Assembly: GCA_003818605.1 (NCBI GenBank)
Contig: RPQS01000020.1
Span: 1 to 64,000, forward strand
Origin: Candidatus Zhuqueibacterota bacterium
GTDB taxonomy: Bacteria; Electryoneota; RPQS01
DNA: 64,000 nucleotides
Reading direction: 5' to 3'
Made by a program: the position numbers and the translations under genes. The notes beneath the pieces are model-generated. The model ran no database searches. It was not told the origin of the DNA and worked only from the letters and a program-made list of their open reading frames with translations. Below are positions 43,300-55,842 of the stretch, in pieces. Each line of letters opens with the position of its first letter. Position 1 is the first letter of the stretch.

Positions 43300-45042
43300 A
43301 TGCACGGCGGCTTCGACAGCTCGGCCTGGGAAGCACTGCCGATTCCGGAACCGGAACGGGCAGCCAGCTTCCTCCAACTGACCCGCAGCATCTTAGGCTG
43401 TGCGGGCCGGGGTGTGCCGCGCGCGGCCTTTTTGCGCGAAGTCTCCGCCATGCTGCTGGACTTCTCCGGCTGCGACTATCTGGATATCCGCCACCGCGAC
43501 GGTGACACCATCTACCGTTGGTCCGCCTCCCGCCGTTCTTATATCCTGCCGCGTTTCGAGTTGTTTTCCCCTTCCGAAGACATTGTTACCACACTCGGTT
43601 TGCCGCATGGTACCGCGCTCGGCAACGTCGCGCGCATGGTGCTGACGCGTACGTATCCGGGCGGTTTGGATTGCTTCACATCCGGCGGCAGCTTCTGGCT
43701 GAACGATACGTCAGAGACGCCGCAGTTTCTCGGCCTGCATCCCGGTCTTACTCAGTGCATTGATTTGGAAGGTGCGGAGCCTTGCCGTTCGCTGCTGTTG
43801 ATTCCGTTTGCGATCAGCGGCGGGAACGCCGGATTCGTTTTATTGGCCAGCGAGCGAACCGAGCATTTTGATGCCGCCGATATTCTGCTTTTTGAGACCA
43901 TCGCGCAGACATTCGGATTCGCAGCCGCGGATCGTCGCGCGCAGGAGGCCTTGCGCGAACGAGTGAAAGAGCTGACATGCCTGTATGGAATGATGCAGAT
44001 CGCGGATTCAGCGGAATGGACGCGCGAGGAAAAACTGGAGCGCATCGTTCATCTGCTCCCCTTGGCCTGGCAGCATCCGGAGATCGCCGCGGCGAAAATC
44101 GAACTCGACGGGACGGCGTTTCAAACTCCGAACTGGCGGGAAGAGGGCAAATCGCAGAGAGCGGACGTCATGGTGGACGGCCGAAAACGAGGATGTGTCG
44201 AAGTGGTTTATATTACGGGTGAACTCGAATTCGCGGGGAATCCATTTCTGGACGAGGAAGCCTGCCTGATTGTCGAAGTGGCACGGCAAATTGCCGGAAT
44301 TATTGAGCGCGAAGAAACGGAAGCCCTTCGCCGGCGAGAACAGCTCTGGCATGCCGACCGTTTAGCGACCATCGGCAAACTGTCTTCGAGCATTGCGCAT
44401 GAGCTTAATGAGCCGCTGAGCAGCATTCTGGGATTTGCTCAATTGGCGAAAAAGAGCGTTTTGGATCCCGCTCGTGTAACAAGCGACCTCGATAAAATCG
44501 TGAGTATCTCTCTCCACGCGCGCGAAATCGTTCGGAAACTACTTATCTTCGCCCGGCAAATGCCCGCGAAGAAAAGCCTCGTGCAAATTAATCACGTCGT
44601 GCAGGATGCTTTAAGTCTGGTAGAAACGCGTTGCGGCAACGAAGGAATAGAATTAGCGCTGCAACTAAAGCCGGACTTGCCGGAAATCGAAGCGGATCCT
44701 TCCCAGCTCAATCAGGTGATTGTCAACTTGGTGGTAAATGCCATGCAAGCCATGCCGCGCGGCGGGCAATTGACTATCCAAACTGCGCGCGAAACGGACG
44801 CACTGCTGCTGATCGTGGAGGATACCGGCATTGGCATGGATCCGGACGTAAGCCGCCAGATTTTTCATCCGTTTTTCACGACGAAAGATGTTTTGCAGGG
44901 AACGGGACTGGGACTCTCGGTTGTGCATGGCATTGTCACGTCGCACGGCGGCACAATTCAGGTCCAGAGCAGTCCCGGGGCGGGATCGCGTTTTGAAGTG
45001 CGACTTCCTTTATCCGGCGGGAATAGTGAGAAGAAGGGATAG
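43300..45042 (+). CDS. Sensor histidine kinase with two N-terminal GAF-like sensor domains
   Basis: LSSSIAHELNEPLSSILGFAQL (H-box), DPSQLNQVIVNLVVNAMQAMP (N-box), VEDTGIGMDPDVSRQIFHPFFTTKDVLQGTGLGLSVVHGIV (G1/F/G2). Confidence 0.9.
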   Translation: MHGGFDSSAWEALPIPEPERAASFLQLTRSILGCAGRGVPRAAFLREVSAMLLDFSGCDYLDIRHRDGDTIYRWSASRRSYILPRFELFSPSEDIVTTLGLPHGTALGNVARMVLTRTYPGGLDCFTSGGSFWLNDTSETPQFLGLHPGLTQCIDLEGAEPCRSLLLIPFAISGGNAGFVLLASERTEHFDAADILLFETIAQTFGFAAADRRAQEALRERVKELTCLYGMMQIADSAEWTREEKLERIVHLLPLAWQHPEIAAAKIELDGTAFQTPNWREEGKSQRADVMVDGRKRGCVEVVYITGELEFAGNPFLDEEACLIVEVARQIAGIIEREETEALRRREQLWHADRLATIGKLSSSIAHELNEPLSSILGFAQLAKKSVLDPARVTSDLDKIVSISLHAREIVRKLLIFARQMPAKKSLVQINHVVQDALSLVETRCGNEGIELALQLKPDLPEIEADPSQLNQVIVNLVVNAMQAMPRGGQLTIQTARETDALLLIVEDTGIGMDPDVSRQIFHPFFTTKDVLQGTGLGLSVVHGIVTSHGGTIQVQSSPGAGSRFEVRLPLSGGNSEKKG

Positions 45043-45045
45043 ATT

Positions 45046-46389
45046 ATGGCCATCGTTGTCCGTGAAACGATCTTGGTAGTGGATGACACTCCGGACACTC
45101 TGGAAGTACTGGAACGCAATCTGAGCGGGCAGGGATACCGTGTTTACACGGCATCGAGCGCAAACGAAGCTCTGCGCACTCTGGACGCCGCCCCGGTGGA
45201 TCTGGTGATTACCGACTATAAGATGCCGGGAGTGAGCGGATTGGATCTCATCCGTCATGTGCGCGAAAACTTCCGCGACACGGAAGTGGTCATGATTACC
45301 GGCTTTGCCTCCATTGAAGGAGCGGTGGAAGCGATCAAGGGCGGAGCTGAAGAATATTTGTCCAAACCGTTCACCGATGATGAATTGGCCGGGGCGGTGC
45401 AGCGCGCATTGAGCAAATTGAATCAACGGCGGGCCGGGCAGCAAGCCGCCGAGGCGGCCGAAACGCCGTACGGTCTGATGGGAGCATCCGAATCCATGCG
45501 CAAGGTGGCGGTGACACTGATGAAAGCCGCTGCAACGAAGAGCACGGTGTTGATCACGGGGGAGAGCGGCACGGGGAAAGAATTAGTGGCACGTGCTATT
45601 CATTATTACAGTCCGCGCGCTTCCGGGCCGTTCATACCGATCAATTGCGGCGGGATTCCCGAGGGACTCTTGGAGAGCGAACTGTTCGGGCATGTCAAGG
45701 GAGCCTTTACAGGCGCAACCGAGTCGCGCGCTGGGTTTTTTCAAACGGCGGAAGGCGGCACGATTTTTCTCGACGAGATCAGTGAGCTCAGCCTGCCTTT
45801 GCAGGTGAAGCTGCTGCGCGTGCTGCAGGATAAGGAAGTTTGTATGGTGGGCGCGACCCGACCGAATAAAGTGGACGTGAAAATTATTGCCGCAACCAAT
45901 AAAGATCTTCAGGGAATGGTGAAGAGCGGCGGTTTCCGCGAAGACCTGTTTTTCCGTCTCAACATTATTACGATTTCGCTGCCGCCGCTGCGCGAACGCG
46001 GCGATGACATTCTGCTGCTCACACATCACTTTGCGGCGAAGCTTGCGCAAGAATTCGGCAAGCCTGTGCCGCAGTTTTCGGAGCGCGCTTTACAGGCTTT
46101 GCAAAACTATGACTGGCCGGGTAACGTCAGGGAACTCGAAAATATTATTCATCGCATTGTCGTAATGACGGATGCGCCGCTCATAGACATCACCGATCTG
46201 CCTTCACTGATGCGTTATTCGGCAACACGCGAGTACGGATTAGACCGCACGCTGGCCGACGTGGAAGCTGATCACATTCAACGGGTACTGGCCAGCGTCA
46301 GCGGCAATAAAACCACAGCCGCGCGTGTACTGGGAATTGACCGGAAAACCCTACGGGAAAAGTTAAAGCACTACCGGATCAACAACTGA
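45046..46389 (+). CDS. NtrC-family sigma-54-dependent response regulator
   Basis: Receiver ILVVDDTPDTLEVLERNL...DLVITDYKMPGVSG; AAA+ GESGTGKELVARAIHYYS, GAFTGA (ELFGHVKGAFTGATESRAGFF), C-terminal Fis-type HTH VSGNKTTAARVLGIDRKTLREKLKHY. Confidence 0.95.
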   Translation: MAIVVRETILVVDDTPDTLEVLERNLSGQGYRVYTASSANEALRTLDAAPVDLVITDYKMPGVSGLDLIRHVRENFRDTEVVMITGFASIEGAVEAIKGGAEEYLSKPFTDDELAGAVQRALSKLNQRRAGQQAAEAAETPYGLMGASESMRKVAVTLMKAAATKSTVLITGESGTGKELVARAIHYYSPRASGPFIPINCGGIPEGLLESELFGHVKGAFTGATESRAGFFQTAEGGTIFLDEISELSLPLQVKLLRVLQDKEVCMVGATRPNKVDVKIIAATNKDLQGMVKSGGFREDLFFRLNIITISLPPLRERGDDILLLTHHFAAKLAQEFGKPVPQFSERALQALQNYDWPGNVRELENIIHRIVVMTDAPLIDITDLPSLMRYSATREYGLDRTLADVEADHIQRVLASVSGNKTTAARVLGIDRKTLREKLKHYRINN

Positions 46390-46422: not shown

Positions 46423-46457
46423 AATCGGTGGGGCGTCTTGCCCCGCCGATTCTTTTT
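46423..46457 (+). terminator. Rho-independent terminator downstream of response regulator
   Basis: AATCGGTGGGGC/GCCCCGCCGATT (12 bp, one G-T wobble), followed by CTTTTTT. Confidence 0.88.
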
Positions 46458-46613
46458 TCCCCGCAATGTAAATCGTTATCGAGTCGCAAAAACCCGTTAT
46501 ATGCGAGCCCGGTCTCTGTTCCGTAAATATTTTAGGCTGTTTATTTTCAAGATACAAAGTGGAAAATATCGAATTTGCGTAGAATTCTCCTGAAAGTGTC
46601 TTATTGTGAAACT

Positions 46614-46630
46614 TGGCACACGGAATGCTT
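46614..46630 (+). promoter_or_regulatory. Near-consensus sigma-54 (-24/-12) promoter
   Basis: TGGCACACGGAATGCTT versus consensus TGGCACR-N4-TTGCW; GG at 46615-46616 and GC at 46627-46628 have the required 10-nt spacing. Next gene starts at 46789. Confidence 0.65.
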
Positions 46631-46788
46631 TGTTACTTGATGCTGTCATATCCCAGATTATAATAAATGGCTCGGCAAGTTGAAGCTGACAGCCCGCAGA
46701 ACTGAATAAAAACCGAGCGCGCATTGGCCGGGATTATTGACCGCATAGTTCGTATCACGTCAGTCGCTGGAGCAGGGAGGTGTCATTC

Positions 46789-47079
46789 ATGTTCATGGCA
46801 TCCGACGAAAAGTCAGGTCCGGTTCAGGGGTTGTGCTCCACCTGTATTCACGGGCCGGATTGTCAAAACTGCAATGAAGAGGCGATTTTTTATTGCGAGA
46901 ACTATGAAGACAGTCTTACTCACGAACATGAACTCCAACCATCAGCCGTTCCCGTCGGAGTCGCGGCCGCCGAGGGTGAAGACCGCTTGATGGGATTATG
47001 CGTCAATTGCGAACGTCGCGGATACTGCACGAACGCCCGTAAATTGGGCGGCGTGTGGGTGTGCGAAGAGTATTTGTGA
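46789..47079 (+). CDS. Small Cys-rich (metal/Fe-S-binding-like) protein with duplicated CxxC...C...C motif
   Basis: GLCSTCIHGPDCQNCNEEAIFYCENYED ... GLCVNCERRGYCTNARKLGGVWVCEEYL. ATG 46789 with GGAGG 8 nt upstream; the track start 46780 is a GTG overlapping that Shine-Dalgarno sequence. Confidence 0.7.
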   Translation: MFMASDEKSGPVQGLCSTCIHGPDCQNCNEEAIFYCENYEDSLTHEHELQPSAVPVGVAAAEGEDRLMGLCVNCERRGYCTNARKLGGVWVCEEYL

Positions 47080-47168: not shown

Positions 47169-48017
47169 ATGAAATCGGAAGACATTTCGGGCATTGTAGA
47201 ACGACACCGCAATGACCAAGGGAGCCTGATCGCGATCCTGCAGGACATTCAGGCCCGCTATAGTTATCTGCCGGCGGATGCTCTGCAACTGGTATCGCAA
47301 CAGACCGGACGCTCGCTGGTGGACATTTACGGAGTGGCCACGTTCTACCGTGCGTTCAGTCTCAAGCCTCGCGGCAAGCATCTCATCTCCGTGTGTCTCG
47401 GGACAGCGTGTCATGTGCGCGGCGGACCGGCCATTGCCGCCAAATTTTGCTCCGTGCTGGGCATTAAAGCCGGTGACACCACAGCCGATCGCGAGTTCAC
47501 TCTGGAGACATTGAACTGTCTGGGAGCCTGCGCGTTAGGCCCAATTGTGGTGGTGGACGGCCATTATTATTCGAATGTCAGCCCCGTGAAGGTGAAGGAG
47601 ATTTTAGAGGAAACCCGCGCCGGTCTGAAAAAAACGGGTGTGCGAGACGATAAGCGCATCTTTCCGGTGGAATTGAGCTGCCCACGGTGCAATCATAGTC
47701 TGATGGATACCGCGCATAAAATTGACGGCTATCCGGCCGTGCGCGTAACAGCCGCATTCAACGGTTCTCACGGGTGGATCCGGCTGTCGAGTCTGTACGG
47801 CAGTCCGGTTGTGGAATCGGAGCACGAAATTCCCCCCGACGTCGTGGTGAACTTTTTCTGTCCGCACTGCCACACCGAATTGACCGGAGCCGGACCTTGT
47901 CCAGTGTGCGAAGCGCCGATGGTGCCGCTCATGATTAGCGACGGCGGCATTGTGCAAATCTGCTCGCGCCGCGGTTGCCGTTTTCATATGCTTGATCTGG
48001 AAACAGATATCGTCTGA
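47169..48017 (+). CDS. NuoE-like [2Fe-2S] thioredoxin-fold subunit with C-terminal zinc-ribbon-like extension
   Basis: GSLIAILQDIQARYSYLPADALQLVSQQTGRSLVDIYGVATFYRAFSLKPRGKHLISVCLGTACHVRGG...LNCLGACALGPIVVVDGHYYSNVSP; tail with SCPRC, FCPHC, CPVC, CSRRGC. Confidence 0.92.
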   Translation: MKSEDISGIVERHRNDQGSLIAILQDIQARYSYLPADALQLVSQQTGRSLVDIYGVATFYRAFSLKPRGKHLISVCLGTACHVRGGPAIAAKFCSVLGIKAGDTTADREFTLETLNCLGACALGPIVVVDGHYYSNVSPVKVKEILEETRAGLKKTGVRDDKRIFPVELSCPRCNHSLMDTAHKIDGYPAVRVTAAFNGSHGWIRLSSLYGSPVVESEHEIPPDVVVNFFCPHCHTELTGAGPCPVCEAPMVPLMISDGGIVQICSRRGCRFHMLDLETDIV

Positions 48018-48079: not shown

Positions 48080-51000
48080 ATGGAACGACTACCATCCATT
48101 GACTCTTTACTGGCAATGCAGAAGCGGCTGGCGAGTCAGCGCGATCCCAATCGCCCGACGATTGTGATTCCCGCCGGAACTTGCGGTCAGGCCAGCGGAG
48201 CCAACGACTTGATTCGCATCGCCAAACGCGAAATTCTCGAACGCGGTCTGACGTCGCGAATCGGATTGCGGATTACCGGCTGCCACGGCTTTTGCGAAAT
48301 GGAGCCGTCGGTGCTCGTCGAACCGCGCGGCACGTTCTACCCGAAACTGAACATGGATCAGATGGCGCAAGTGGTGGAAGCGGTGGCGCGCGGCGAGGTG
48401 TTGACCGATCTTTTACTGAAAGATCCCGAAACGGGAAAACCACTGGAAACCCAGGCGGCGATTCCTTTTTTCCGAACTCAAGTTCGGGCGATTCTTGGCC
48501 GCAACGAAAAGGTGGATCCCATCCGGGTTCAGAACTATCTCGAATACGGCGGCTATCGTTCGTTGGCCATGGTTCTCAAGAAAGGCGATCCCGCATGGGT
48601 AATCGGGGAAATGAAAACTTCCGGTCTTCGCGGGCGCGGCGGCGCCGGTTTCCTGACGGGAGCCAAGTGGGAGATGCTGGCCGCGAAAACCCATCCCAAA
48701 GGCAAATATCTGGTTTGCAATGCGGACGAGGGCGATCCCGGCGCTTATATGGATCGCAGCGTGCTCGAAGGCAATCCCCACAGCATTCTTGAAGGCATGT
48801 TGATCGGAGCCTATGCGACCGGCGCAAATAAAGGTGTGATTTACGTGCGCTCTGAATACCCGCTGGCTATCAAGCATTTATTGATCGCCTTGCGGCAGGC
48901 GCGCGAACTTGGAGTGTTAGGCGATCACATTCTCGGAACCGGATTTTCCTTTGATATTCAAATGGTCAAGGGCGCGGGCGCGTTCGTATGCGGTGAAGAG
49001 ACGGCGCTTATTCGATCCATTGAAGGCAAAATGGGAGAACCGAGACAGCGCCCGCCGTATCCGGTGCAGAGAGGCATTAACGGCTGTCCGACCGCTATTA
49101 ATAACGTGGAAACCTGGGCGAACGTGCCGCTGATTATCGAGAACGGCGGCCATATTTTCGCGAAAAGCGGAACGACCACCAGTACGGGCACGAAGATTTT
49201 CAGTTTGGTGGGTAAGATAAAAAACACCGGACTGGCGGAAGTGCCGATGGGAATCACCGTAGAGAAGATCGTTAATGAGATCGGCGGCGGCCCGTCGGGC
49301 AAGGCGGCGATTAAAGCCGTGCAGACCGGCGGTCCCAGCGGCGGCTGTATTCCGGCTTCCAAATTCGATCTGCCGATAGACTACGACAGTTTAGCGAAGG
49401 CCGGTTCCATTATGGGATCGGGCGGTATGATCGTGATGGACGAAAACACCTGTATGGTGGATATCGCCAAATACTTCATGCACTTCTTAAAAGATGAGTC
49501 GTGCGGCAAGTGCTTCACCTGCCGCAAAGGCACGCAGCGAATGTACGAACTTTTAGACGACATCTCCTGTGGCCGCGGGACGCTTGCTCATCTTGACCTT
49601 TTAGAGGAATTGGCGAATGTCGTTAAAGATACCACGATGTGCGGACTGGGGCAAACGGCGGCCAATCCGGTGTTGAGTACGCTCCGCTACTTCCGCCAAG
49701 AATATCTGCGGCATGTGGTACAGCAGCGCTGCGACGCGTTCGTGTGCAAGGAATTGGTGGGAGCACCGTGTCAATCGGCGTGTCCTATCGGTACGGAAGC
49801 GTGGCGTTATATTGCGCACATTGCCCGCGGGGAATATGAGAGCGCCTACGTTGCCATTCGCGAAGCGAATCCGTTTCCTTCGGTTTGCGCGCGCGTATGC
49901 AGCCATCCCTGCGAAAGCCGCTGTAAAAGCGGGACTGTGGGCAGTCAACCCATCGCCATCCGCGCGCTCAAGCGATTTATTACCGACCGGATTGATCCGT
50001 CGGTATATCATGCGAAGCCGCAGCGGGCGGCAAGTTCCGATGCGGCGAAGATCGCAATTATCGGATCCGGCCCGGCCGGGCTTACGGCGGCGCATTATCT
50101 GTCGCTGTTAGGCTATAAATCCACCGTGTTTGAATCGGACGACCGGCCGGGCGGCATGCTGGTCAGCGGTATTCCGTCCTATCGTTTGCCGCGCAAGACG
50201 ATTGAAAAAGAAATTCAAAGTCTGATTGACGGCAATGTCACGTTGAAATGCAACGCGCGTTTCGGCCGCGACGTTACCGTGGACAAGCTCTTGAAAGAGG
50301 GTTATCAGGCTATCTTTTTAGCGATGGGTGCGCACAAGAGCCGCAAGCTGAACGTAGAAGGCGAGGATATTGACGGCGTGCATCCGGCCATTCAATTCCT
50401 GAAAGCATTCAATCTCGAAGGCAAAAAGCTGGCGCGGGGACGGGTGGGAGTCATCGGCGGCGGCGATTCGGCGGTGGATGCAGCGCGCACGGCGCTTCGG
50501 CAGCCCGGTGTGGAAAGCGTCACCATTTTCTACCGCCGTACGCGCCATGAAATGCCCGCGCTCGGCGAAGAAGTGGATGCCGCGATCAGTGAAGGAATCG
50601 GATTAGAGACGCTCACCGCGCCGGTGAAAATTCTATCCAAAGACGGAAAGTTATCCGGAATCGAATGCATTCGCAATAAACTCGGCGCAATGGATAAGCG
50701 GGGACGGCGCAATCCCGTACCCCTTCCGGGCACCGAGCATCAGATTTCTCTGGACACATTGATTGTCACGATTGGAGACGTTCCCGATATTGATTACATG
50801 GCCGAAATGGACGTTACCATCAGCGATTGGGGAACGCTGGTGGCTGATCCTGTGACCTTAGCGACCAGTCGTCCCGGAGTATTCGCGGGCGGCGACGTGG
50901 TCACCGGGCCGAATACCGTGGTGGAAGCGATTGCCGCGGGTAAACGCGCGGCGCGCATGATTGACCGCTATCTGCAAGGTTTATCTCTGGAAGCGATGTC

Positions 51001-51250
51001 GGAACGACGGCGTCCGGAAGTCTATGTGGAACCGGTCATGTTAAGCGAAACAGAGATGAGCAAAACGGATCGTTCGGTACCGCCGGCCATTGACGCAGAG
51101 GCGCGCCGCCGCTCCTTCGATGAGGTCGAGTTAACGCTGACCGAGGACGACGCCAAACGCGAAGCCCGGCGGTGTTTGCGCTGTGATCTGGAGTTTACTC
51201 AAGATCAGGCTCACGCAGAGAAACCCGTGGAAAGGGGGCAACTCGTATGA
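48080..51250 (+). CDS. NuoF-like (NADH/FMN/4Fe-4S) subunit fused to GltD-like FAD/NAD(P) oxidoreductase
   Basis: NuoF: GRGGAGFLTGAKWEM, NADEGDPGAYMDRSVLEGNPH, CGEETALIRSIEG, SCGKCFTCRKGTQRM. GltD-like: CQSACPIGTEAWRYIAHIARGEYESAYVAIREANPFPSVCARVCSHPCESRCKSG, IAIIGSGPAGLTAAHYLSLLGY, GVIGGGDSAVDAARTALR, GVFAGGDVVTGPNTVVEAIAAGKRAA. Confidence 0.93.
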   Translation: MERLPSIDSLLAMQKRLASQRDPNRPTIVIPAGTCGQASGANDLIRIAKREILERGLTSRIGLRITGCHGFCEMEPSVLVEPRGTFYPKLNMDQMAQVVEAVARGEVLTDLLLKDPETGKPLETQAAIPFFRTQVRAILGRNEKVDPIRVQNYLEYGGYRSLAMVLKKGDPAWVIGEMKTSGLRGRGGAGFLTGAKWEMLAAKTHPKGKYLVCNADEGDPGAYMDRSVLEGNPHSILEGMLIGAYATGANKGVIYVRSEYPLAIKHLLIALRQARELGVLGDHILGTGFSFDIQMVKGAGAFVCGEETALIRSIEGKMGEPRQRPPYPVQRGINGCPTAINNVETWANVPLIIENGGHIFAKSGTTTSTGTKIFSLVGKIKNTGLAEVPMGITVEKIVNEIGGGPSGKAAIKAVQTGGPSGGCIPASKFDLPIDYDSLAKAGSIMGSGGMIVMDENTCMVDIAKYFMHFLKDESCGKCFTCRKGTQRMYELLDDISCGRGTLAHLDLLEELANVVKDTTMCGLGQTAANPVLSTLRYFRQEYLRHVVQQRCDAFVCKELVGAPCQSACPIGTEAWRYIAHIARGEYESAYVAIREANPFPSVCARVCSHPCESRCKSGTVGSQPIAIRALKRFITDRIDPSVYHAKPQRAASSDAAKIAIIGSGPAGLTAAHYLSLLGYKSTVFESDDRPGGMLVSGIPSYRLPRKTIEKEIQSLIDGNVTLKCNARFGRDVTVDKLLKEGYQAIFLAMGAHKSRKLNVEGEDIDGVHPAIQFLKAFNLEGKKLARGRVGVIGGGDSAVDAARTALRQPGVESVTIFYRRTRHEMPALGEEVDAAISEGIGLETLTAPVKILSKDGKLSGIECIRNKLGAMDKRGRRNPVPLPGTEHQISLDTLIVTIGDVPDIDYMAEMDVTISDWGTLVADPVTLATSRPGVFAGGDVVTGPNTVVEAIAAGKRAARMIDRYLQGLSLEAMSERRRPEVYVEPVMLSETEMSKTDRSVPPAIDAEARRRSFDEVELTLTEDDAKREARRCLRCDLEFTQDQAHAEKPVERGQLV

Positions 51251-51924
51251 CCACTTTGATGATCAACGGCTTGCAGGTTTCCGTTGAAAGCGGATCCACC
51301 ATTCTCGAGGCGGCGCAATTCCTCGGATTTCCGATTCCCACTCTCTGTCACATGGAAGGGCTTTCTCCGTATGGGGCGTGCCGTCTCTGCGTGGTGGAAA
51401 TCGGGGAAGGTCCGAAGGCGCGGCTGGTTTCGTCATGCACCTATCCCGTGGAAGAAGGGATGAAGGTGCGCACGGCGTCGAGCCGGGTGGTGCGTGCGCG
51501 CAAGATGGTTCTCGAACTGCTGTTAGCGTCGTGTCCGCAGTCAAAAGTGATTCAGGATTTGGCTTCGGCGCACGAAGTGCGAAAGCAGCGTTTCAGGCAG
51601 GAATACGAAGACTGCATTTTGTGCGGGCTGTGCGTTCGGATGTGCGAAGAACAGATGATGGCGCACGCCATCGGATTCCGCGGACGCGGGGAGACTCGGA
51701 GTATCGGAACTCCCTTCGATGTTCATTCCGATGTGTGCCGGCTGTGCGGCGGCTGCATTTACGTTTGTCCCGCCTGCCAATTGCGCTGCACATACACCGA
51801 ACCTGAAAAGGCGATTTGCGGCGGCTGCGCGAATTTAAGCCCGCCCTGCGTGGTCAAGGATCCGTTCGACGACATGATGTGCTTCATGTCGCCGTGTGTC
51901 GCATGTGAGATTAAACGAAATTAA
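51247..51924 (+). CDS. 2Fe-2S/4Fe-4S protein (NuoG/HoxU/HydA N-terminal-like), no hydrogenase H-cluster domain
   Basis: Plant-type [2Fe-2S] PTLCHMEGLSPYGACRLCVVEI; CILCGLCVRMC and CRLCGGCIYVCPAC; extra Cys in C-term. ATGA overlap with preceding gene. Confidence 0.88.
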   Translation: MTTLMINGLQVSVESGSTILEAAQFLGFPIPTLCHMEGLSPYGACRLCVVEIGEGPKARLVSSCTYPVEEGMKVRTASSRVVRARKMVLELLLASCPQSKVIQDLASAHEVRKQRFRQEYEDCILCGLCVRMCEEQMMAHAIGFRGRGETRSIGTPFDVHSDVCRLCGGCIYVCPACQLRCTYTEPEKAICGGCANLSPPCVVKDPFDDMMCFMSPCVACEIKRN

Positions 51925-51954: not shown

Positions 51955-53544
51955 ATGTCTATGACGCTCTCGAGGGTCAATTCCTCCGCCGCGACCCTCA
52001 CCAAGAACCGGACGGAAGGTTCTGTCGTCCCGGCTTCCGGCATGTGCGTGACTTGTGTGGACGGCTGCATCGGTATGTGCGAAATCGGCAAGTCCGCTTT
52101 CCGCGGACACGAAGTCATCTATCCGCAGCCGTTCGGCGTTATCACCACGGCGGCCGAGAAGACCTACCCGGTGGACTACTCGCATTTCAACATTATGGGA
52201 ACGGCCGTGGGCGCTCACGGCATTGAGGCCGACAGTGACAAAGCCATCTTCCCGGCCGTGAATCTGGAAGTGAAATTCGGACATGAAAATGGCATAAAGT
52301 TCCGTTTGCCGTGGATTATTCCCGGCATCGGATCTACGAACATTGCCAAGAACAACTGGGAAGGCTTGGCTATCGGTTCGGCTCTGGCGGGCACGGGTTT
52401 GACCATCGGTGAGAACGTGGTCGGCATGGATCCGCAATCCACATTCAAGAACGGTCGGGTCGTGGATACTGTTGACTTAAAACGCCGCGTCCAACTCTAT
52501 ACGAGTCATATGCGTGATGGCTACGGCGCGATCATCGTGCAGGCCAACGTGGAAGACGGGCGCCTGGGCGTTCAGGAATACGCTATCGAAAAATTAGGCG
52601 CGCAGGTCGTCGAACTGAAATGGGGTCAGGGAGCCAAGGATATCGGTGGAGAAGTGAAGATTAACGACCTCAAGAAAGCGCAAATGCTTTATGAACGCGG
52701 ATACATCGTGCTGCCGAATCCGACTGATCCCAACGTGATTAAAGCTTTTGAACGCAATGCATTCAAGGAATTCGAACGGCACTCTCGCGTGGGCATGGTC
52801 ACTGAGGAAAGCTTTGCCAAACGAGTCGAGGAACTTCGCAAAGCGGGCGCACAGTATGTTTTTCTGAAAACCGGCGCCTATCGTCCGGCAGATTTAGCGC
52901 GCGCTATCGCGTTTGCCTCCAAATATAAAATTGATTTGTTGACCGTGGATGGCGCAGGCGGCGGAACGGGCATGAGTCCGTGGCGGATGATGAACGAGTG
53001 GGGTGTGCCGCCGGTGGAACTGCATTCTCTGCTTTATTCGTACGCCAAGAAATTGGCCGATAAAGGCAAGTACCTTCCGGCGCTGGCCGTAGCGGGAGGA
53101 TTTACGTTTGAAGATCAAATCTTCAAAGGCTTAGCGCTCGGCGCTCCATTTGTCAAGCTGGTGGGCATGGCCCGCGGCCCCATCGCCGCGGCGATGGTCG
53201 GCAAGACGATTGGCCGGACGATTGACGAGAATCAAGTGCCGGTTTACATCGAGCGTTTCGGCAATACGAAGAACGAAATTTTCGTGACGGCAGCGGAACT
53301 CCGGCACACGTTGGGCGACGAGGCTTTTGAAAAGCTGCCCACGGGGGCCATCGGTCTCTACACGTACTATGAGCGGTTGGCGCAAGGTCTGCGGCAGCTT
53401 ATGGCCGGAAGCCGCAAGTTTGCGTTATCGCACATTGCGCGCGAGGATCTTGCCGCGCTGACTCACGAGGCCGAGAAAATCAGCGGCATCCGCTACATTA
53501 TGGACGTGGATTCCAAGGAAGTCGAGAACATCCTCAACTTCTGA
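51955..53544 (+). CDS. Glutamate synthase-like FMN-binding protein (GltB central domain family, no amidotransferase domain)
   Basis: GGEVKINDLKKAQMLYERGYIVLPNP...LLTVDGAGGGTGMSPWRMMNEWGVPPVELHSLLYSYAKKL...PALAVAGGFTFEDQIFKGLALGAPFVKLVGMARGPIAAAMVG; N-terminal Cys cluster MCVTCVDGCIGMC. Confidence 0.9.
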   Translation: MSMTLSRVNSSAATLTKNRTEGSVVPASGMCVTCVDGCIGMCEIGKSAFRGHEVIYPQPFGVITTAAEKTYPVDYSHFNIMGTAVGAHGIEADSDKAIFPAVNLEVKFGHENGIKFRLPWIIPGIGSTNIAKNNWEGLAIGSALAGTGLTIGENVVGMDPQSTFKNGRVVDTVDLKRRVQLYTSHMRDGYGAIIVQANVEDGRLGVQEYAIEKLGAQVVELKWGQGAKDIGGEVKINDLKKAQMLYERGYIVLPNPTDPNVIKAFERNAFKEFERHSRVGMVTEESFAKRVEELRKAGAQYVFLKTGAYRPADLARAIAFASKYKIDLLTVDGAGGGTGMSPWRMMNEWGVPPVELHSLLYSYAKKLADKGKYLPALAVAGGFTFEDQIFKGLALGAPFVKLVGMARGPIAAAMVGKTIGRTIDENQVPVYIERFGNTKNEIFVTAAELRHTLGDEAFEKLPTGAIGLYTYYERLAQGLRQLMAGSRKFALSHIAREDLAALTHEAEKISGIRYIMDVDSKEVENILNF

Positions 53545-53560
53545 CACACTGATAAATGAC

Positions 53561-53593
53561 GCACGACCGCCACAGTCATTTTAGCGGCCGTGC
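53561..53593. other. Intergenic hairpin upstream of the PPDK-N-like gene
   Basis: GCACGACCGC(53561-53570)/GCGGCCGTGC(53584-53593), 10 bp with one mismatch, no T-tract. Confidence 0.4.
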
Positions 53594-53715
53594 GCAAAAT
53601 TCGGAGGGCGGGAGCATGGCCGTCCACCTTTTGGGCTTGCCCGACAAGGTTGATACGTTCATGTTCTCGCCCCCTTTTTCTCGGCATGCCTTTCACAGCC
53701 CGGAAGGAGGACCTT

Positions 53716-55842
53716 GTGCAGCCGGAAACTCGCGTGAGTGCTGAACGCGAACAGGTCAATTGCCTGTACCGAATCTGGGAAGTCCTCAACAGACTGGATA
53801 CAGATTTCGAGGAAGCTTTTACGGTAGTGGCGAAAGCCATTCCGGTGTGCGTCCGCTTTCCCGATCTGTGCCGCGTACGCGTCATCTATGCCGGTCAAAC
53901 GTTCGCGGCGGAAAAAGCGGTCGAGACAAGCTGGTTTTACGGGCAAGAGATCCGGGTGCAGAATCGCGCAGCGGGGAATATTCTCGTTTATTACACGCAG
54001 GAGGTTCCACTCGTCTCCGGCGCGCTCTTTGATGATAATGAACGGCATTTGTTCGAGATGATCGCCGTACGTCTCGGTCATTTTATCGAGCACCGCGAAC
54101 TGCTGCGCAATCTGGGACATATTCCGCCGAAGAAAAAAGAATCCACGGCGCAGCGGCCCAATGATTGGCGCACCCTGATTGCGCTGCTGCGCAATACGAA
54201 TCTGGATCTTGTGTTTCGGCTTTCGCATAAAATGCTTGTTCATTTACGGCTGCGCGGTATGGCGGAAGCGGACTCCATAATGGAACGGCTGGGCGTGCAC
54301 GCCGAGCGCGAAGATGACGACGACGCGACAACGGCCATGATGCCCGTGCAGCGAAGCCGCGAGGATACGATTACGTTCAGTGAAGACGTATTCCGGCTGG
54401 CTTCCACCAGTTTGAGCGATGACGAGGTTTTTACCTGCCTGCATCGCTGGATGCAGGAAGATAAGTGCAGCTACTTTGCCCGCACGATTTCCAATCCCGA
54501 CAGCACACTGCGCGAGACGATAGATGCCATTCGTTTTCTCAGTCATTGCGCCGCGCAGGGAGTGGAGCTTTCCGACTGGCTGCTCAAGGCCGCGCATGTG
54601 CATCTGATCCAAAGATTCCTTTCCGATCAATTGGAGTTCGTGAAGATAGCTAAAGATTATATTGCAAAGGATGATTTTTATGATTTGATCCGCCGCATGG
54701 TCTATTTACAGGGAAGTCACGGGAAATTAGGAGCGAAAGGTGCGCGGCTGTTCTTGGCGTCGCATATCCTGCAGAAAAAGAGCGGCGAACATCCGGAACT
54801 GCGCAAGATCAAGACCCCCAAGAGCTGGTACATCACCACGGACTGCCTGTTCGCTTTTTTATGCTATAATAATCTTGAAGACCTGATGGATCAAAAGTAT
54901 AAAAAGCTGGATCAGGTTCGTCAGGAGTATCCGTTGGTGGCGCAGTTTTTCCGGCATGCGCAATTTCCGCCGGAAATCGTTCGCGGTCTGGCGATGGCGC
55001 TGGATGATTTCGGGGATGTGCCGCTGGTTGTGCGCGGCTCCAGTCTGTTGGAGGATCAATTGGGTGCGGAGTTCAGCGGCAAGTATGTCAGTCGCTTCAT
55101 TCCGCCATACGGCAGAAAGCAAGAAAGGCTGAAAGCGGTGTTGGACGGCATTGCGGAAGTGTACGCATCCGTTTTCGCCGCCGAGCCGATTGAATTCCGT
55201 GCCGAGCGCGGTCTGATTGATTTTGAGGAGGATGTCGGAGTTCTGATTCAAGAGGCGGTGGGGATGCGCGTTGGCCGGTACTTCCTTCCGGCTTTTTCCG
55301 GTGATGCTTACGGCGGGGCGGAAAATATTCCGGGTATCCGCGGCGAAAGCATGTTGCGGCTGGTGTTCGGTTTGGGAACGCGCATGAACGCGCGACCGGA
55401 AGACGATTCGTCCGTGCAATATACTCTGTCGCAGTCACCGCGCTTGCTGACGATTTTAAATATCGGAAAGCACGCCGGTGACACGGCCATGATGGACGTC
55501 ATCAATCTGGAATCCGCGCAGATTGAATCGCTGGTCGTGAACGATTTTTTGAAATCATACGGCCGTAAGTTTGTCGGCATCGAGCAAGTGATGTCGTCCA
55601 TCCGCGATGGACAGACTGTGCCTTTCTCACCGCTCGGTTTTGAATATGACAAGGATCAATGTCTTGTCACGTTCGACGGCATGGTGCGGTCCACGCCTTT
55701 GGTGCAGCAAATCCGCACTATTCTTGACGTGTTGGTAAAAGCCTTTCACACCCCCCTTGAAATTGAGTTCGCTACTAACGGCCATGATCTCTACTTGTTG
55801 GAGTGTAAAGGACCAAGGCAGGGACGCACCGCCAAATCATAA
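53716..55842 (+). CDS. PEP/pyruvate-binding (PPDK N-terminal-like) protein with N-terminal GAF-like sensor domain
   Basis: GDVPLVVRGSSLLEDQLGAEFSGKYVSRFIPPYG...LIDFEEDVGVLIQEAVGMRVGRYFLPAFSGDAYGGAENIPGIRGESMLRLVFGLGTR. GTG start at 53716 with AAGGAGG 5 nt upstream, preferred over 53590. Confidence 0.82.
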   Translation: MQPETRVSAEREQVNCLYRIWEVLNRLDTDFEEAFTVVAKAIPVCVRFPDLCRVRVIYAGQTFAAEKAVETSWFYGQEIRVQNRAAGNILVYYTQEVPLVSGALFDDNERHLFEMIAVRLGHFIEHRELLRNLGHIPPKKKESTAQRPNDWRTLIALLRNTNLDLVFRLSHKMLVHLRLRGMAEADSIMERLGVHAEREDDDDATTAMMPVQRSREDTITFSEDVFRLASTSLSDDEVFTCLHRWMQEDKCSYFARTISNPDSTLRETIDAIRFLSHCAAQGVELSDWLLKAAHVHLIQRFLSDQLEFVKIAKDYIAKDDFYDLIRRMVYLQGSHGKLGAKGARLFLASHILQKKSGEHPELRKIKTPKSWYITTDCLFAFLCYNNLEDLMDQKYKKLDQVRQEYPLVAQFFRHAQFPPEIVRGLAMALDDFGDVPLVVRGSSLLEDQLGAEFSGKYVSRFIPPYGRKQERLKAVLDGIAEVYASVFAAEPIEFRAERGLIDFEEDVGVLIQEAVGMRVGRYFLPAFSGDAYGGAENIPGIRGESMLRLVFGLGTRMNARPEDDSSVQYTLSQSPRLLTILNIGKHAGDTAMMDVINLESAQIESLVVNDFLKSYGRKFVGIEQVMSSIRDGQTVPFSPLGFEYDKDQCLVTFDGMVRSTPLVQQIRTILDVLVKAFHTPLEIEFATNGHDLYLLECKGPRQGRTAKS

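Follow-up and report, generated by a model that had tools for sequence, protein, structure and literature searches.

Conserved enhancer-like and sigma-54 promoter elements probably link a two-component regulator to a redox operon in mostly uncultured bacteria

A dedicated two-component, sigma-54-dependent switch very probably drives the redox operon in the 64-kb stretch of DNA analyzed here (the window), judging from sequence comparison. The earlier note had predicted a sigma-54 promoter for this cluster under the control of the adjacent two-component system, and that prediction is supported: the −24/−12 element and an enhancer-like element (UAS) upstream of it are conserved, both show an association with the regulator gene, and the genome carries rpoN, whose absence had been named as a reason to discard the idea, as an open frame of 496 codons (PF04552, E 7e-61). 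The regulatory features of the window are as follows.

43300 to 45042, + strand: sensor histidine kinase gene (580 aa, HisKA and HATPase_c), adjoining the regulator gene in relatives
45046 to 46389, + strand: NtrC-family response regulator gene (receiver, AAA+ domain with GAFTGA at residue 219, Fis-type HTH)
46423 to 46458, + strand: hairpin (46423 to 46451) and T-run, probably an intrinsic terminator for the regulator transcript that overlaps the UAS
46430 to 46463, + strand: conserved enhancer-like element, probable regulator binding site (UAS), the only match in the genome
46614 to 46629, + strand: predicted sigma-54 promoter, −24 GG at 46615-46616 and −12 GC at 46627-46628, predicted start near 46640

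In the proposed mechanism, the kinase (43300) would phosphorylate the NtrC-type regulator (45046), and the phosphorylated regulator would bind the paired element at 46430 to 46463. A DNA loop over about 150 bp would join the UAS-bound regulator to the promoter, where the AAA+ domain would open sigma-54 polymerase at 46614 to 46629. From a start near 46640, we infer a transcript spanning at least the genes for S, NuoE, NuoF/GltD, ferredoxin, and the glutamate-synthase-like protein. As for the signal sensed, the kinase contains a weak GAF-like region upstream of HisKA/HATPase_c, under the Pfam cutoff, and no strongly hydrophobic 19-residue segment except for borderline residues 165 to 183. This combination suggests, but does not prove, that the signal is cytoplasmic. 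The regulator keeps the GAFTGA motif, and its HTH recognition helix is conserved among orthologues.

The genes downstream of the predicted promoter begin with a small protein referred to here as S.

46789 to 47079, + strand: small Cys-rich protein (96 aa) with two LCx2Cx5C...CE repeats, called S and encoded first in the operon
47169 to 48017, + strand: NuoE/HydC/StnA-like [2Fe-2S] subunit with a C-terminal extension
48080 to 51250, + strand: HydB/StnB/NuoF-like part fused to a GltD/NfnB-like NAD(P)-binding part
51247 to 51924, + strand: ferredoxin-like subunit resembling the HydA/NuoG N terminus
51955 to 53544, + strand: glutamate-synthase FMN-domain-like protein
53590 to 55842, + strand: PPDK_N-domain protein after the cluster, operon membership uncertain

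The start codon of S (ATG at 46789) is preceded by a Shine-Dalgarno-like GGGAGG at 46775 to 46780. Eight Cys residues of S are invariant among 39 aligned homologues. Searches of Pfam and NCBIfam returned no match for S, the best PDB match was marginal (E 0.03), and its AlphaFold model is of low confidence (pLDDT 56.5, pTM 0.21). Sequence search likewise returned no solved relative of the glutamate-synthase FMN-domain-like protein. A relative of the PPDK_N-domain protein lies within about 11 kb of a regulator that lacks the cluster in another genome (G015, L161).

The promoter sequence itself, TGGCACACGGAATGCT at 46614 to 46629, was described in the earlier note as near consensus, and its sequence, coordinates, and spacing all hold exactly. 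Compared to TGGCACR-N4-TTGCW there is one mismatch, an A replacing the first T of TTGC, and the GG-N10-GC spacing is exact. A stretch of 159 bp separates the site from ATG 46789, as had been stated for the first open reading frame of the cluster, and the site lies within a regulator-to-operon gap of 390 bp. A string match by itself had to be rejected as proof of a promoter. Matches with up to two mismatches are not enriched in the 64-kb window (9, versus 18.5 expected), and matches with up to one mismatch across the whole genome number 55, versus 52 for a reversed-pattern control, counts at the level of chance that make the bare match weak evidence. Arithmetic from the genome rate gives a chance expectation of about 0.003 matches on the same strand of the 390-bp gap. 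With a weight matrix set by hand from the published consensus rather than trained on data, the site scored 16.8, the top value in the 64 kb with both strands considered; the runner-up scored 13.5.

The decisive evidence for the promoter is conservation across orthologous gaps rather than the string match. A shared gene order of histidine kinase, NtrC-type regulator, gap, S, NuoE, NuoF/GltD fusion, ferredoxin, and glutamate-synthase-like protein was found in Zixiibacteriota, Planctomycetota, Acidobacteriota, Latescibacterota, Coatesbacteria, Hydrogenedentota, Neomarinimicrobiota, Bacteroidetes/Ignavibacteria, Spirochaetales, and deltaproteobacterial groups, with taxa taken from record titles, which may err for uncultured genomes. 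The regulator pair, paired site, and sigma-54 promoter precede the same cluster in dozens of bacteria belonging to many phyla. In the forward direction, the best sigma-54 score per gap averaged 13.6 over 51 regulator-to-operon gaps; the reverse strand and shuffled gaps each gave 3.5. Of 47 orthologous gaps, 36 held an element of at least 12 bits, versus 9 of 1,995 control windows of the same length drawn elsewhere in the same loci. On this comparison, the predicted promoter looks real.

Where the same enzyme genes occur without an adjacent regulator (13 loci), the upstream sigma-54 score was low in all except L081 (12.6), and the scores were lower than in loci with the regulator (Mann-Whitney p 1e-7, which, like every p value given here, overstates independence because the loci are akin to one another). 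Counting against the proposed switch are three acidobacterial loci (L095, L104, and L129) with a strong UAS beside the regulator and a poor −24/−12 element (4.7 to 5.5), as well as the regulators of G001 (broken) and of G003 and G015 (lacking the cluster) described below.

The second conserved feature of these gaps is the UAS. In the window, it is built from a dyad, GGGGCGTCTTGCCCC at 46430 to 46444 (GGGGA-N5-TCCCC), and a second CCCC half-site within 46448 to 46462, 18 bp further on. Directly after the regulator stop codon, the gaps have in common a 34-bp consensus, GGGGA-N5-TCCCC-RSYGG-TTCAAAWYTCCCC-R, of which the first 15 bp are the dyad. Gibbs sampling recovered the UAS at 30.7 bits, versus 10.7 bits in shuffled sequences. 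When the genome was searched with a profile of the element (R1), the single match was 46430 to 46463 (E 6.5e-4), and related genomes usually had one R1 match each, at the redox operon. Activator sites had been expected around 46460 to 46600; a conserved element was indeed found, but just upstream of that interval. It is probably the enhancer to which the regulator binds.

Spacing between the two elements is also conserved. From the start of the UAS to the −24/−12 element, the median distance was 188 bp (range, 132 to 217 bp; 47 pairs), and the distance in the window is 184 bp (~185 bp). Both the window and its relatives fall inside the range of 100 to 250 bp that PMC6615313 reports for the majority of Clostridiales UAS. 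Helical phasing of these distances is suggestive only (p 0.01 against a smoothed null, uncorrected for kinship). The second half of the UAS was also considered as a full dyad, which is not supported on average (3.0 of 7 pairs, equal to the offset control), although L136 and L079 are among the few genomes that show both dyads.

The UAS and the regulator travel together. Among 60 loci with sufficient upstream sequence, the UAS was present in 36 of 42 with an adjacent regulator and in 3 of 18 without one (Fisher 5.5e-7, with a UAS model trained in part on loci it was tested on). Using held-out loci that did not contribute to training, the comparison was 13 of 19 versus 3 of 18 (p 0.002). When close relatives were searched whole, 10 genomes held both a regulator orthologue (at least 63% identity) and the UAS. 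In G016 (L165), the regulator, UAS, promoter, and S are together and the Nuo genes are not beside them. G103, in which the UAS and regulator are far from the operon, was set aside because the sequence breaks off into runs of N at both places.

Because the UAS directly follows the regulator gene, its GC-rich inverted repeat could be the terminator of that gene, conserved as such, with the regulator binding elsewhere. This explanation, which we consider unlikely, has in its favor a strong hairpin (46423 to 46451; −23.3 kcal/mol) followed by CTTTTTT in the window. The earlier note had read this stretch as a strong terminator for the regulator gene, and the hairpin and its T-run do exist, but they coincide with the conserved element at 46430 to 46463. 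The T-run is absent from a same-genus relative in which the enhancer positions remain, so the stretch is read as an enhancer with an overlapping terminator in the species of the window. Most relatives lack the T-run as well. Conservation extends to the loop bases and to the lone CCCC half-site downstream, neither of which a terminator would need. In G028, the regulator pair is on one contig, while the UAS, a sigma-54 site (15.4), S, and the Nuo genes are on another, meaning that the UAS goes with the target operon and not with the 3′ end of the regulator gene. Two other genomes (G003 and G015) have kept a regulator orthologue, and neither the cluster nor a UAS was found beside it. In L071 and L066, a second UAS with a sigma-54-like site lies ahead of a displaced S gene or NuoE; the extra copy in L071 is the one preceding S. 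The favored reading remains an enhancer to which the regulator binds, and in the species of the window the hairpin and CTTTTTT probably end the regulator transcript too. Terminator-like hairpins can thus conceal conserved activator sites.

An equally improbable alternative is that some other NtrC-family protein of the cell, and not the neighboring regulator, drives the conserved sigma-54 promoter. The genome carries further NtrC-family proteins (~45% identity), and in G001, which belongs to the same genus, truncation and frameshifting have broken the orthologous regulator (L164, 9295 to 9608) but the UAS and sigma-54 site persist. Against this stands the co-occurrence of the UAS with the orthologous regulator across loci and genomes, which favors control by the neighbor. 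Least probable of all, and by our estimate highly unlikely, is that a sigma-70 promoter (TTGATG-16-TATAAT, 46637 to 46664) is the main one for the operon and the sigma-54 match incidental, since this 10/12 match just downstream of the sigma-54 site is of a kind expected about 0.8 times by chance in the region and is not conserved in the same-genus relative, where TGGCACACnG is, and the sigma-54 element is strongly conserved.

By eye, the open reading frames directly upstream of the UAS in G028 (L163, 4069 to 5909) are superoxide dismutase-like and hemerythrin-like.

Sigma-54 operons run by a neighboring two-component activator are well known (PMC4641369, PMC6615313), so the type of circuit described here is not new. 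For example, in PMC4641369, the Desulfovibrio vulgaris response regulator DVU2394 is paired with DVU2405-DVU2399 and listed under energy metabolism. As in such D. vulgaris regulons, the window combines a GAFTGA-type activator, a local energy-metabolism operon, a UAS, and a sigma-54 promoter. The target genes differ, and the searched text of PMC4641369 names no glutamate synthase or NADH enzyme as a target. The domain plan is also that of NtrB/NtrC and AtoS/AtoC, and among named NCBIfam models AtoC and NtrC come closest, but the regulator scores far under their cutoffs (442.9 versus 714 and 437 versus 558.6, respectively), and both the target operon and the UAS motif are different.

The encoded enzyme resembles Stn/Bfu (HydBC-type) bifurcating enzymes in having NuoE-like and HydB-like subunits and a GltD/NfnB-like NADPH-binding domain (PMC7483475, PMC10482914, and PMC9304861). 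In StnC, according to PMC10482914, a GltD-like domain is joined to a NuoG-like domain, whereas the GltD-like part here follows the NuoF-like part (48080 to 51250). A further difference from Stn/Bfu is the added glutamate-synthase FMN-like protein. The searched passages of the three Stn/Bfu papers discuss no regulator or sigma-54. Our literature search, whose coverage left out most subscription journals, returned no paper on this regulator, UAS, or cluster, and no description of the present circuit was found in it.

A broader, tentative interpretation, which we hold with less than even confidence, is that the sigma-54 circuit is self-contained, usually serves a single target, and has been retained or transferred as a whole across many phyla, and that it controls an undescribed NAD(P)H/ferredoxin complex with a HydBC-like bifurcating core and a glutamate-synthase-like FMN protein. 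As part of the same interpretation, S would be the most constant target of the circuit and may be a redox partner or a feedback sensor. The downstream genes form a widespread redox cluster, mostly in uncultured bacteria, encoding a little-studied enzyme. A defined enhancer and promoter, usually found once per genome, provides a handle on the inducing condition and hence on function. With a conserved switch placed before the same cluster in so many lineages, what turns this enzyme on becomes testable.
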